Source of the DNA: Pseudomonas fildesensis
GTDB taxonomy: Bacteria > Pseudomonadota > Gammaproteobacteria > Pseudomonadales > Pseudomonadaceae
Length of the DNA: 64,000 nucleotides
Assembly (NCBI RefSeq): GCF_001050345.1
Contig: NZ_LFMW01000007.1
Coordinates: forward strand, 248,001-312,000
Reading direction: 5' to 3'
Shown here piece by piece: positions 43,259-52,907 of the stretch (position 1 is the stretch's first letter; each line of letters opens with the position of its first letter). Under the pieces are notes generated by a model. It was given only the letters and a program-made list of their open reading frames with translations. It had not been told where the DNA came from and did no database searches. Both the position numbers and the translations under genes were made by a program.

Positions 43259-44245
43259 ATGACTGTTCCCATCGCGATCATCGGCACCGGCATCGCCGGT
43301 CTCTCCGCCGCCCGAGCGTTGAAAGACGCGGGGCACGTTGTACAACTCTTCGATAAAAGCCGCGGCAGTGGTGGCCGCATGTCCAGCAAGCGCAGTGATG
43401 CCGGTGCGCTGGACATGGGCGCTCAATACTTCACCGCCCGCGACCGGCGCTTCGTCAACGAAGTGCAGCGCTGGCAAAGCCATGGTTGGGCCGAGCAATG
43501 GAAGCCACAGCTGTACAACTTCAAGTCCGGCCAACTCACGCCGTCACCCGATGAACAGATCCGCTGGGTCGGCACGCCGCGCATGAGTGCCATCACCCGC
43601 GCCGTGCTCGACGACCTGCCGGTGGAGTTCGGTTGCCGGATCACCGAGGTGTTCCAAGGCAAACAGCACTGGAACCTGCTCGACGCCGACGGCGGCAATC
43701 ACGGCCCGTTCAGCCACGTGATCATCGCCACGCCTGCGCCCCAGGCCACCGCCCTGCTGGCTGCCGCGCCCAAGCTGGCGAGTGCCGCAGCCGGTGTGAA
43801 GATGGACCCGACCTGGGCTATCGCGCTGGCCTTCGACAAGCCCCTGGATACACCGATGGAAGGCTGCTTCGTGCAAGACAGCCCGCTCGACTGGCTGGCG
43901 CGCAACCGCAGCAAGCCGGGGCGCGACACCACCCTCGACACCTGGGTGCTGCACGCCACCAGCGCCTGGAGCAAGGCGCACCTGGACCTGTCCAGGGAAG
44001 CGGTGATCGAACACCTGCACGGCGCCTTCGCCGAATTGCTGCACAGCGCCATGCCGGCGCCATCGTTCAGCCTGGCGCACCGCTGGCTCTACGCACGACC
44101 GTCCAGCGCCCACGAATTCGGCGTGCTGGCCGACGCCGACCTGGGCCTGTACGTGTGTGGCGACTGGTGCCTGTCGGGCCGCGTCGAAGGCGCCTGGCTC
44201 AGTGGCCAGGAAGCCGCGCGACGCTTGATCGAGCATTTGCAATGA
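43259..44245 (+). CDS. Renalase-like FAD-dependent amine oxidase family protein
   Basis: A 328-residue soluble flavoprotein. [20 protein letters not shown] is the FAD Rossmann motif, [12 protein letters not shown] the GR motif after it, and [21 protein letters not shown] the C-terminal FAD-contact motif with GD. The fold matches small renalase-like NAD(P)/FAD oxidoreductases; the substrate is unknown. ATG at 43259, with a TGTACA-type site upstream. The next gene, the Trp-rich protein, overlaps by four bases. From memory, homologues lie near hemH and phr in P. aeruginosa as well. Confidence 0.85.
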
Positions 44246-44457
44246 ACCGCATTAATCCCGCCAAGTTGCTGCTGTCGAAGTGGACAGCAGCGCAGCCTCG
44301 AAACAAAGAAAAACACTTCCTGGTCACCGAACTGTTTCGTGACGAAGAAGGCACCGTGCTGGAAATCGAACTGCAAGCCGTGATGACCCGGCGCGGTGAA
44401 CGCCTGCCCTGGCAAACCCTGCAAAGCGCCGAGGACTGGAAGATCGGCTGGAAATAG
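44242..44457 (+). CDS. TIGR02450 family small Trp-rich protein
   Basis: A 71-residue protein matching the TIGR02450 pattern: [32 protein letters not shown], then [11 protein letters not shown] and the final DWKIGWK with regularly spaced tryptophans. The function is unknown; in proteobacteria these genes tend to lie near photolyase/cryptochrome genes, which holds here (phrB 2 kb downstream). Start ATG at 44242 overlaps the stop of the FAD gene (ATGA). The operator/promoter region of the next unit begins 17 bases after its stop. Confidence 0.85.
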
Positions 44458-44474
44458 TCTCCCCGCAAAATACT

Positions 44475-44498
44475 TGTACAAAATATTTGACTTGTACA
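44475..44498. promoter_or_regulatory. Operator 1: TGTACA-N12-TGTACA direct repeat
   Basis: Two perfect TGTACA hexamers (44475-44480, 44493-44498) exactly 12 bases apart, so an 18-base period. The -35 element TTGACT sits in the spacer. As I recall it, class II LitR/PplR regulators of P. putida recognise T(G/A)TACA-N12-TGTACA. Confidence 0.8.
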
Positions 44499-50359: not shown

Positions 50360-51165
50360 ACAGCGCCCTGTACAGCGGCTGGATCGCACATCGCCGGTTC
50401 GCGCCCAAGGCCCATGCCTTTCGCTACCGCATCGGCCTGCTGTACCTGGACCTCAGCGAACAGGACGAAGTGCTCGGCCTATCGCCCCTGGCCGGCACAA
50501 GTCGCCTGGCCCCCTTCGGCTTTCGCCAGCAGGACTACCTGCGTGAATTCACGCGCCACGGCATGAGCTTGACCGATGCCGTGCGCCAGGAAGTCGGCAA
50601 GGCCCTGGGGCATACACCCCAAGGCGGTATCTGCCTACTGACCCAGGCCCGCAGTTGGGGCCTGGCTTTTAATCCGGTGAGTTTCTTCTACTGCTTCGAG
50701 GATGACGGACAACTGGCCGCGATCCTGTGTGAAGTGACGAACACCCCATGGCGCGAACGCTATCACTACGTGCTGCCGGCCCAGGCCCTCGGCGCGGATG
50801 AGCATCAGCACTTTGCCGTGGCCAAGGCCTTCCATGTGTCGCCTTTTTTACCGCGCGACCTGGAATACCGCATGAGCTTCAGCCCGCCCGCCGCCAGGCT
50901 CGGCGTGCACATGGCCGATTGGCAAGGCGAGCACAAAGTCTTCGACGCCACGTTGAGCCTGCAGAAAGAGCCGCTGAATCGCGCCAGCCTGCACCGCTAC
51001 CTGTGGCGTTTCCCCTGGATGACCGCCAAGACCTGCCTGGCAATCTACTGGCAGGCCATGCGCCTGTTGCTCAAACGCACACCGATTTTTTCCCATCAGG
51101 CCGCCGATGGCGCCTCTCGCACCGCAGTCGGGTATACCAAGGATCGCCGCCATGAAATCCCCTAG
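50356..51165 (+). CDS. DUF1365 family protein
   Basis: A 269-residue protein with family pattern SALYSGWIAHRRFAPKAHAF at the N-terminus, LGFRPVSF-type segment GLAFNPVSFFYCFEDDG, EVTNTPWRERYHYVLP, and AKAFHVSPFLPRDLEYRMSF. No membrane span is evident. DUF1365 genes nearly always lie next to the flavoprotein and CFA-like gene, as here, and the function is unknown. GTG start overlapping the previous stop; the CFA-like gene starts 14 bases before its end. Tight coupling suggests a shared pathway on membrane fatty acids. Confidence 0.9.
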   Translation: MNSALYSGWIAHRRFAPKAHAFRYRIGLLYLDLSEQDEVLGLSPLAGTSRLAPFGFRQQDYLREFTRHGMSLTDAVRQEVGKALGHTPQGGICLLTQARSWGLAFNPVSFFYCFEDDGQLAAILCEVTNTPWRERYHYVLPAQALGADEHQHFAVAKAFHVSPFLPRDLEYRMSFSPPAARLGVHMADWQGEHKVFDATLSLQKEPLNRASLHRYLWRFPWMTAKTCLAIYWQAMRLLLKRTPIFSHQAADGASRTAVGYTKDRRHEIP

Positions 51166-52423
51166 TTTATCGGTCAAGGCCAACCGCCTGAACGTCAACG
51201 GTGTGACCAGTGCGCTGCTGCGCAAGGGTGTGCTGCGCCAACTCAGCCAACTGCGCCATGGCCAGTTGGTAGTGATCGAAGACGGTGAACGTCAAGTCTT
51301 CGGTGCTCGGGAAGCGCACCTGCTCGGGGAAATCCAGATCCTCGATTCGGCTGTGTGGGGGCTGGTGGCGGCCAACGGTTCGATTGGTGCCGGCGAGGCG
51401 TTTATCCATGGCTACTGGAGCAGCCCGGACCTGACCGCGGTGGTACGCGTGATGGTCAGCAACCTGGATGTACTCGATGCAATGGAGGGCGGCCTGGCGC
51501 GGTTGGCGCGCCCGTTCACCCAGGGCCTGCACTGGCTCAACCGCAATACGCGCAAGGGCTCACAGAAAAACATAGCGGCGCACTATGATCTGGGCAACGA
51601 CCTGTTCGAAGAATTCCTCGACCCGACCATGATGTATTCGGCGGCGCAATTCCTGTCGCCCGACGACACCCTGGAACAAGCACAACTGAACAAGCTGGAG
51701 CGCATCTGCCAGAAACTCGCGCTCAAGCCCGCCGACCACCTGCTGGAAATCGGCACCGGCTGGGGCAGCATGGCGCTGTATGCGGCGCAGCACTACGGTT
51801 GCAAGGTCACCACCACCACCTTGTCCAAAGAGCAGTTTGCCTACACCGAAAAACGCATCGAGGCCCTGGGCCTGCAGAACCAGGTGACGCTGTTGTTGCA
51901 GGACTACCGCGACCTCACCGGCCAGTACGACAAGCTGGTCTCCATCGAAATGATCGAAGCGGTGGGCCATCGCTTCCTGCCGACCTACTTCAAGCAATGC
52001 GCGCACCTGCTTAAGAGCGATGGCCTGATGTTGCTGCAAGCCATCACCATTCGTGAGCAACGCTATGAGCAGGCGAAGAACAGCGTTGATTTCATCCAGC
52101 GCTATATCTTCCCCGGCGGCGCCCTGCCCTGTGTGCAAAACATGCTGCAGATCGTCAGCCGCGACACCGACATGAACCTGCTGCACATGGAAGATTTCGG
52201 CCTGCATTACGCAAAAACCCTGCGCCTGTGGCATGAGAACTTTCGCCGCGCTCACGGCCGCCTGACGGAATTGGGCTACGACGAATACTTCCTGCGTTTG
52301 TGGGAGTTCTACCTGTGTTACTGCGAAGGTGGCTTTATGGAGCGCACGATTGGCACCGCACAATTGCTGCTGGCCAAGCCGTCCGCCATCAACCCACCGC
52401 TGCTCGGGCGTTTCAGTGCTTAA
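51152..52423 (+). CDS. Cyclopropane-fatty-acyl-phospholipid synthase family methyltransferase
   Basis: A 423-residue SAM-dependent enzyme of the CFA synthase family acting on unsaturated phospholipid chains. HYDLGNDLFEEFLDPTMMYS opens the catalytic domain, LEIGTGWGSMALYAA is the SAM motif, SIEMIEAVG the substrate-site Glu region, and FIQRYIFPGGALP the final conserved block. Relative to E. coli Cfa, as remembered, the FEHVG segment reads IEAVG and the HTI segment that holds bicarbonate reads QAI, so the chemistry may be methylation without cyclopropane closure. ATG at 51152, overlapping DUF1365. No second CFA gene is in the window. Confidence 0.88.
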   Translation: MKSPSLSVKANRLNVNGVTSALLRKGVLRQLSQLRHGQLVVIEDGERQVFGAREAHLLGEIQILDSAVWGLVAANGSIGAGEAFIHGYWSSPDLTAVVRVMVSNLDVLDAMEGGLARLARPFTQGLHWLNRNTRKGSQKNIAAHYDLGNDLFEEFLDPTMMYSAAQFLSPDDTLEQAQLNKLERICQKLALKPADHLLEIGTGWGSMALYAAQHYGCKVTTTTLSKEQFAYTEKRIEALGLQNQVTLLLQDYRDLTGQYDKLVSIEMIEAVGHRFLPTYFKQCAHLLKSDGLMLLQAITIREQRYEQAKNSVDFIQRYIFPGGALPCVQNMLQIVSRDTDMNLLHMEDFGLHYAKTLRLWHENFRRAHGRLTELGYDEYFLRLWEFYLCYCEGGFMERTIGTAQLLLAKPSAINPPLLGRFSA

Positions 52424-52907
52424 AACACTGGCCAATGCCGTGCTGTTCCAGTGCGGCTGGTTTGCGTGTGTGCTGGGCGGCGACAGCGCGTGGCTGCTTT
52501 TAGGGATCGCCGTGCTGGCGGTGCATCTGCTGTGGATAAGTTCATGGTCAGGGGAGGGGCAGATGATGCTCGCCGTGACCTTGTTGGGTACGGTGACCGA
52601 CACCACGCTGCGCGCCTTCGGTGTGTTTCATTTCAGCATGCCCGGGCCGCTGATCCCCTTTTGGCTGATCCTGCTGTGGGCGTTGCTGGCCACCACCTTG
52701 CGCCATTGCCTGGCCTGGAGCGCCCAACCCTGGTGGCAAGCCAGCCTGCTTGGCGCGGCAGGCGGGCCACTGTCGTATTACGCGGGCAGCCAATTGGCGG
52801 GCGTCAGCTTTGGCTATGGCACCGCGCCGACGATGATCGGATTGGCGTTGCTCTGGGCGATGTTGTTCCCAGTGTTGCACTGGATCGCCGGGCAGCTTGG
52901 GGATTGA
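52416..52907 (+). CDS. DUF2878 family membrane protein
   Basis: A 163-residue polytopic membrane protein with about five spans (LLLGIAVLAVHLLWISSW, IPFWLILLWALLATTL, MIGLALLWAMLFPVLHWI). It fits DUF2878, typical of CFA/DUF1365 clusters. The GTG at 52416 overlaps the CFA-like stop by eight bases; this is the frame's only start that keeps the first span intact. It is the last overlapping gene of the operon. Function unknown; it may place the lipid-modifying enzymes at the membrane. Confidence 0.82.
   Translation: MLKTLANAVLFQCGWFACVLGGDSAWLLLGIAVLAVHLLWISSWSGEGQMMLAVTLLGTVTDTTLRAFGVFHFSMPGPLIPFWLILLWALLATTLRHCLAWSAQPWWQASLLGAAGGPLSYYAGSQLAGVSFGYGTAPTMIGLALLWAMLFPVLHWIAGQLGD

Follow-up and report, generated by a model that had tools for sequence, protein, structure and literature searches.

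A predicted blue-light-induced photoprotection operon of the PplR1/PmlR1 type, with putative furan fatty acid genes, in Pseudomonas fildesensis

The DNA analysed here, referred to as the window, is a 64,000-nucleotide stretch of one contig (NZ_LFMW01000007.1, positions 248,001 to 312,000) from the 6.3 Mb genome of Pseudomonas fildesensis. Between positions 44571 and 52907, its plus strand carries nine genes that overlap or are separated by 3 bp at most, and we consider it highly probable (about 0.87) that they form a blue-light-induced photoprotection operon of the type governed by the LitR regulators PplR1 and PmlR1. This operon is a member of an already published light operon and is ordinary for the genus, and our finding mainly confirms a known system in another species. 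What is added is a comparative picture that includes an exchange of sensors, a promoter motif for an extracytoplasmic function (ECF) sigma factor inside litR, and a conserved operator before a renalase gene. The genes, the operator and promoter sequences, the LOV partner, the absence of ChrR and the conservation of the locus were determined here; light induction, LOV-LitR antagonism (for PmlR2) and the activities of RudS and of UfaM, UfaD and UfaO come from work by others on relatives, and by analogy we infer the same light behaviour and furan fatty acid production for this strain.

Results

All genes that the original prediction had listed for this run are present in the order given, nearly without gaps and on one strand; gene families were assigned with Pfam and NCBIfam profiles (Table 1). 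The run begins at 44571, and position 43259, previously taken as the start of the locus, belongs to a distinct upstream unit (renalase plus a TIGR02450 protein) with an operator-like site of its own. The first gene, formerly labelled YbgA-like, is more precisely described as encoding a fusion of a TudS domain with DUF1722, the hallmark of RudS. The same fusion is encoded together with phrB and LitR in an operon that responds to light, named the LitR-PhrB-RudS operon (PMC11417400); the member assayed there was P. putida PP_0741.

In P. mendocina, the pmlR1 region (PME6650 to PME6610) comprises nine genes that likely form a light-induced polycistron according to RNA sequencing and quantitative reverse-transcription PCR, with blue light inducing phrB 27- to 33-fold and ufaM 25- to 33-fold (PMC9758184, Maruyama et al. 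2022). Named in that unit are pmlR1, phrB, a short-chain dehydrogenase (SDR) gene, a FAD oxidoreductase gene and ufaM, the remainder being hypothetical (PMC9758184). Compared by description, the window operon shares with it the nine genes, the named functions and the published order; the promoter hexamers, the 16-bp spacer, the two LitR sites and, elsewhere in the genome, a second LitR and LOV locus with folM are shared as well. P. mendocina differs in being another species, in that some of the genes are hypothetical there, and in that the renalase unit is not discussed in the excerpted parts of the paper. The PplR1-3/PpSB-LOV regulon of P. putida KT2440 includes phrB, pplR1 and ufaM under class II LitR, whose consensus is T(G/A)TACA-N12-TGTA(C/T)A (Sumi et al. 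2020, via PMC9758184 and PMC11417400), and the window has these three genes and this consensus in common with it. Light control of the whole set, rather than ChrR control, is supported as had been proposed, but it was already published for the P. mendocina operon and for P. putida ufaM (PMC9758184).

Two predicted LitR operators, one exact and one with a single mismatch, bracket a predicted sigma-70 promoter ahead of the first gene (Table 1). TRTACA-N12-TGTAYA operators placed in this way are characteristic of the PplR1/PmlR1 systems, and in the P. mendocina promoter P6650 TTGACT-N16-TATGAT is accompanied by two TGTACA-N12-TGTACA sites, of which the first covers the -35 and the second falls between the transcription start and the start codon (PMC9758184). 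Operator matches with at most one mismatch number three in the window against 0.08 expected, and the whole genome has five exact matches against none for a reversed control pattern. Three of these five (L006, L007 and L008) lie in or near genes without an evident light link and were judged likely to be chance matches.

The regulator encoded by the second gene is assigned to class II LitR because it has a MerR helix-turn-helix and a four-helix B12-binding_2 domain while lacking both a full match to the B12-binding domain and the DxHxxG motif; CarH aligns to it only over residues 23-177. The genome encodes one clear LitR paralogue, 36% identical, outside the window on contig C30, and a third MerR match is weak (E 5.6e-5, contig C39). 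Beside the C30 paralogue stand genes for a short LOV protein whose Cys53 lies in CRFLQ, a product without Pfam match and a FolM-like SDR, so that the short LOV partner typical of class II is encoded next to a LitR. This layout is the same as in the pmlR2 region of P. mendocina, where illuminated PmSB-LOV binds PmlR2 and relieves repression (PMC9758184). As the LOV gene sits with the second LitR on C30 in the pmlR2 layout, the photoreceptor for the operon is probably encoded outside the window. The photosensory MerR of the original prediction calls for correction: the MerR-type regulator in the operon is of class II, for which the photoreceptor is a separate LOV protein in P. mendocina and a LOV gene lies on C30 here.

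As long as it is dark, LitR proteins of class II would occupy the TGTACA-N12-TGTACA sites around the promoter at 44487-44514. In the light, the short LOV protein encoded on C30 would take LitR off the DNA, and its release would allow the nine genes to be transcribed as one unit. RudS might then strip the near-UV-sensitive 4-thiouridine from tRNA and the photolyase repair DNA, and UfaM, UfaD and UfaO would convert cis-vaccenate of the membrane into an oxidant-scavenging methylated furan fatty acid.

Rhodobacter UfaM has been assigned as a methylase, UfaD as an NAD-FAD desaturase and UfaO as a DUF1365 protein, and the three genes of R. palustris are RPA2569-2571 (PMC7380195). By family and gene order, the FAD desaturase, DUF1365 and CMAS methylase genes of the window correspond to this UfaD-UfaO-UfaM trio. 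For comparison across the phylum, 200 genomes were sampled, 52 of which have DUF1365; leaving out a partial match (G123) and letting the window stand for its own genome gave 51 loci (the window and 50 genomes), each examined over mostly 16 kb. UfaD lies immediately upstream of UfaO in all 51. A CMAS gene adjacent to UfaO is absent from seven, and every one of the 43 UfaO-adjacent CMAS proteins compared scores higher with the window UfaM than with the genome's own Cfa. The DUF1365 gene is the sole one in the genome, and a separate, stronger CMAS match lies on contig C20. Because the gene formerly called CFA-like is, by homology and gene order, ufaM within the trio, a furan fatty acid is the likely product. 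R. sphaeroides (RSP1091-1087 and RSP2143-2144) shares with the window the UfaD-UfaO pair, UfaM, the photolyase and the SDR, and a lipoprotein of the kind of RSP_1088 is encoded by a separate gene in the genome of the window; it differs in that its genes are split over loci and controlled by the singlet-oxygen ECF/ChrR pair RpoE/ChrR. Six loci outside Pseudomonas (L226-L228, L230, L236 and L251) have a MerR gene and after it a second CMAS gene that is divergent and in most cases accompanied by DUF2878, 1-3 kb 5' of the trio.

No ChrR or ECF homologue was found in the window with profiles built for the purpose (E<=1), and no ChrR in the whole genome (TIGR02451, E<=0.001), confirming the claimed absence of ChrR and ECF sigma genes at the locus; the RpoE/ChrR arrangement is accordingly not seen here. 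Among the 51 phylum loci, ChrR is encoded near the block in 24, a strong LitR (more than 250 bits with a profile from the window LitR) in nine, neither in 18 and both in none (one-sided Fisher 0.0015, kinship ignored), weak MerR matches (L056, L070) and ECF genes without ChrR (L044, L059) being counted as neither. The ChrR proteins pass the TIGR02451 cut-off in 23 of the 24 loci, that of L080 falling just below it (111.8 vs 124.5 bits), and an ECF sigma factor was found by profile in 21. Four loci (L052, L064, L076 and L082) read ECF-ChrR-RudS-Phr-NTF2-SDR-UfaD-UfaO-UfaM, which is the window operon with ECF/ChrR replacing LitR. The exclusion is local to the block, not genome-wide, as Vibrio cholerae uses MerR and ChrR together (PMC5241685) and genomes of P. 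syringae likewise carry the two.

In P. syringae DC3000, phrB and the following genes respond to the RpoE/ChrR-type ECF sigma factor PSPTO_1043 through a promoter upstream of phrB within PSPTO_1122 (PMC5507510). Orthologues of RSP_1087, 1090, 1091, 2143 and 2144 lie there in one locus at 34-39% identity (35-39% for RSP_1090, RSP_1091 and RSP_2144), and several P. fluorescens strains have a putative ECF site before phrB without the sigma factor (PMC5507510). The DC3000 locus (PSPTO_1123-1114) resembles the window in holding phrB to cfa in one place and differs in the extra ECF promoter 5' of phrB, with the ECF/ChrR pair PSPTO_1043/1042 encoded elsewhere (PMC5507510).

Within the genus, 149 genomes were sampled, and 69 of the 87 loci in which the lipid block is fused to the PplR1-like operon (see below), window included, were examined in sequence. 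The TIGR02451 cut-off was passed in four of the 149 (G217, G254, G264 and G291), and weaker, mostly partial matches (E<=0.001) were found in 36 more. With one mismatch allowed, a limit chosen after the scores were seen, the ECF motif TGATCC-N16-CGTA lies inside litR, 111-114 bp ahead of where the Phr match begins, in only four of the 69 fused loci (L112, L146, L154 and L266); these are exactly the four from genomes with ChrR, the other 65 being without (Fisher 1.2e-6). They probably represent one clade, and hence few events rather than 69. The position agrees with the published site 5' of phrB within PSPTO_1122 (PMC5507510). Three of 35 named loci have the motif (P. cichorii, P. syringae pv. 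cilantro and P. californiensis), and many other fused loci hold it with two mismatches, partly kept by the coding sequence. In the window, the best site within 220 bp ahead of phr, a degenerate counterpart of the P. syringae promoter, has two mismatches, and such matches are common there (55 against a shuffle mean of 37 and maximum of 50), leaving an ECF promoter in the window unsupported.

DUF1365 is present in 109 of the 149 congeners and absent from 40. It lies within 8 kb of a PplR1-like gene in 86 genomes, or 87 with G303, whose operon is split by a contig break, and elsewhere in 22. An exact operator stands within 350 bp 5' of the first gene in 68 of the 69 fused loci, L130 having a site with one mismatch; the first gene is RudS, except that in L273, where RudS was not found, it is litR. 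All 22 relocated blocks have an exact operator 5' of NTF2, which brings the count to 90 of 91 congeneric blocks examined. The relocated block often stands behind a MerR-LOV, as in P. mosselii and P. monteilii; in these species and P. wayambapalatensis, which we take to belong to the P. putida group, it differs from that of the window in lying beside the MerR-LOV and not beside phr. P. toyotomiensis and P. composti (L210-L212), presumably near P. mendocina, have the same nine genes as the window and two exact operators. The closest named UfaO relatives among the best 80 of 573 are from P. salomonii, a Pseudomonas sp., P. orientalis and P. veronii (93-95% identity), the named species being, we assume, of the P. 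fluorescens subgroup. Elsewhere, over 1.18 Mb, there are 25 exact operator matches, 13 of them before renalase.

The interval between phr and pagL is the site at which the lipid block is retained or lost. Nineteen PplR1 loci without the block were examined, 13 of them in genomes lacking DUF1365 and six in genomes whose block is relocated; 15 have an exact operator, two (L115, L122) one with a single mismatch, and two (L099, L121) none at up to two mismatches. Scars remain in this interval in G339 (L093), with the N-terminal 45 residues of NTF2, the whole SDR and UfaD 1-31 and 398-415, and in G239 (L100), with NTF2 1-22, UfaM 211-423 and DUF2878. Weaker remnants are seen in G305 (L097) and in G327 (L118, where the genome carries the block elsewhere), and SDR and DUF2878 are retained in G200 and G343 (L116, L117). 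The other 13 hold only an SDR gene (distant, with about 32-35% identity, in five) or nothing (L098) and are neutral on the direction of change. Since the end points of the scars differ, at least two separate losses of the block are implied. The arrangement LitR-Phr-(NTF2-SDR)-UfaD-UfaO-UfaM was also found in two Halomonas and in loci of other families. The comparison across Pseudomonas that had been proposed with the original prediction gives no support to an insertion.

Discussion

Several points weigh against the operon being a light-induced producer of furan acids. Sigma-70-like matches in 43000-54100 number one against 2.3 in shuffles, and as this is not above the shuffles, the promoter call depends on its position and its identity with P6650. 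The match of the hypothetical P. mendocina genes to RudS, NTF2, DUF1365 and DUF2878 is one of position only, and the paper, which names UfaM, reports no furan acid in its excerpted parts (PMC9758184). A review that lists P. fluorescens among furan-acid producers speaks for furan acids, but the acid stems from a fish-gut isolate, a different strain (PMC3528120). Expression of Halomonas ufaM in E. coli yielded cyclic acids as well (PMC12089945), so that UfaM by itself does not mark furan synthesis cleanly. A sequence search at E<=1 found no relative of UfaO in the PDB; its AlphaFold2 model (pLDDT, the predicted local distance difference test score, 91.4) shows a beta-barrel and a long helix at the C-terminus and weakly resembles nitrobindin and barrels like those of fatty-acid-binding proteins (best Z 7.5, values below 8 possibly meaning a common arrangement only; best Foldseek E 0.025).

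The cyclic acids would also fit an operon whose CMAS gene is an ordinary cyclopropane synthase that stiffens or stabilises membranes, and the protein does have the CMAS domain and matches the NCBIfam Cfa models, always under the cut-off. However, the constant UfaD and UfaO neighbours, the separate and stronger CMAS on C20 and the scores of the 43 UfaO-adjacent CMAS proteins, all nearer to the window protein than to the genome's Cfa, make this function unlikely. Still less likely, in our judgement, is that the lipid block was inserted as an accessory into a photolyase locus usually without it, as the original prediction had it: genomes without DUF1365 are not rare (40 of 149), and loci with phr, then SDR and no further block genes are common among the block-less ones examined, but the block is far more frequent (109, with 87 at the same site), truncated ends of NTF2, UfaD or UfaM mark the site in some block-less relatives, and the arrangement recurs in Halomonas and other families. 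Insertion was rejected on block frequency and scars.

We give the least weight, and very little, to the set being in truth a singlet-oxygen (ECF/ChrR) regulon that light reaches solely by way of photosensitised damage. In its favour, these genes make up the core RpoE-ChrR regulon of Rhodobacter, ChrR is near the block in 24 of the 51 phylum loci, and PSPTO_1043 governs phrB together with its downstream genes in P. syringae DC3000, with putative ECF sites before phrB also in several sigma-less P. fluorescens strains (PMC5507510). The genome of the window, however, is free of ChrR, its counterpart of the ECF promoter has two mismatches, and LitR operators are present. That light and not singlet oxygen is the switch, as first proposed, agrees with the wiring of this ChrR-free genome, but the two are not strict alternatives in the genus, given the ECF input in DC3000 (PMC5507510).

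Taking the blue-light-induced operon of PplR1/PmlR1 type as our interpretation, we lean somewhat towards a broader picture in which the photoprotection genes form a module that can be transferred and whose sensor can be swapped, sensing either singlet oxygen via ECF/ChrR or blue light via class II LitR and LOV. ChrR-bearing Pseudomonas of the P. syringae type would have gained a second input through an ECF promoter inside the litR coding sequence, combining anticipatory with damage-driven control, and the renalase unit and a distant DUF3833 gene would join the light regulon. In Rhodobacter, furan acid as a signal and as a shield are hard to separate because furan acids are made in response to singlet oxygen and have been proposed to speed the turnover of ChrR (PMC6852236). 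In ChrR-free Pseudomonas they could not act in that way, and a light-switched strain with the full UfaD-UfaO-UfaM set would be a clean host in which to study the protective role apart from the signalling role.

Further predicted light targets and neighbouring genes

The unit of renalase and the TIGR02450 protein (43186-44457) is predicted to be a second light-induced unit. Of the 45 congeneric loci that could be tested, counting the window, 42 have an operator-like site with no more than one mismatch in the 250 bp 5' of renalase (12 exact), against none of 83 control windows inside the gene, which are coding DNA and hence an imperfect control. Renalase repairs NAD(P)H isomers. A DUF3833 lipoprotein gene far from the operon (C1:258653; L005 1501-2103) stands alone with an exact operator 78 bp upstream and is likewise predicted to be a light target, its wider surroundings (L127) adding no more; the DUF3833 family is also found near the block in several ECF/ChrR loci.

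Table 1. Features of the light operon and the preceding renalase unit, in window coordinates
Feature	Position	Strand	Basis
LitR-operator-like site, 1 mismatch, 5' of renalase	43186-43209	+	
Renalase (FAD amine-oxidase fold)	43259-44245	+	PDB 4zcc, E 5.5e-184, residues 1-328 of 328; PF01593
TIGR02450/DUF2389 Trp-rich protein	44242-44457	+	
LitR operator Site 1 (predicted), TGTACA-N12-TGTACA, exact, over the -35	44475-44498	+	Pattern search
Sigma-70 promoter (predicted), TTGACT-N16-TATGAT; TTGACT at 44487, TATGAT at 44509	44487-44514	+	
LitR operator Site 2 (predicted), 1 mismatch, between promoter and start codon	44525-44548	+	
RudS (TudS-DUF1722), putative tRNA 4-thiouridine desulfidase	44571-45530	+	PF04463 + PF08349 (Pfam); RudS family PMC11417400
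Class II LitR (PplR1/PmlR1-type MerR regulator)	45534-46475	+	MerR_1 + B12-binding_2
Degenerate counterpart of P. syringae ECF promoter, inside litR, GCATCC-N16-CGTA, 2 mismatches	46366-46391	+	
DNA photolyase	46476-47912	+	PF00875 + PF03441
NTF2/SnoaL-like protein	47914-48336	+	PF12680
Short-chain dehydrogenase (SDR)	48333-49115	+	PF00106
UfaD-type FAD fatty-acyl desaturase (FAD oxidoreductase)	49112-50359	+	PF01593; immediately 5' of UfaO in 51/51 loci
UfaO-type DUF1365 protein (putative furan-ring step)	50356-51165	+	PF07103, E 1.5e-76
UfaM-type SAM methyltransferase (CMAS)	51152-52423	+	PF02353
DUF2878 protein, GTG start	52416-52907	+	PF11086, E 1.6e-42 (translated from 52410)

Downstream of the operon follow a gene for a CxxCxxCC protein and then, on the opposite strand, pagL (lipid A deacylase, 53441-54007). 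Upstream, also on the opposite strand, lie hemH (ferrochelatase, 41103-42128) and a gene for a DUF1731 epimerase. The product of hemH uses up the photosensitiser protoporphyrin, and in each of the 25 congeneric PplR1 loci fetched for that comparison hemH is a neighbour of the light operon.

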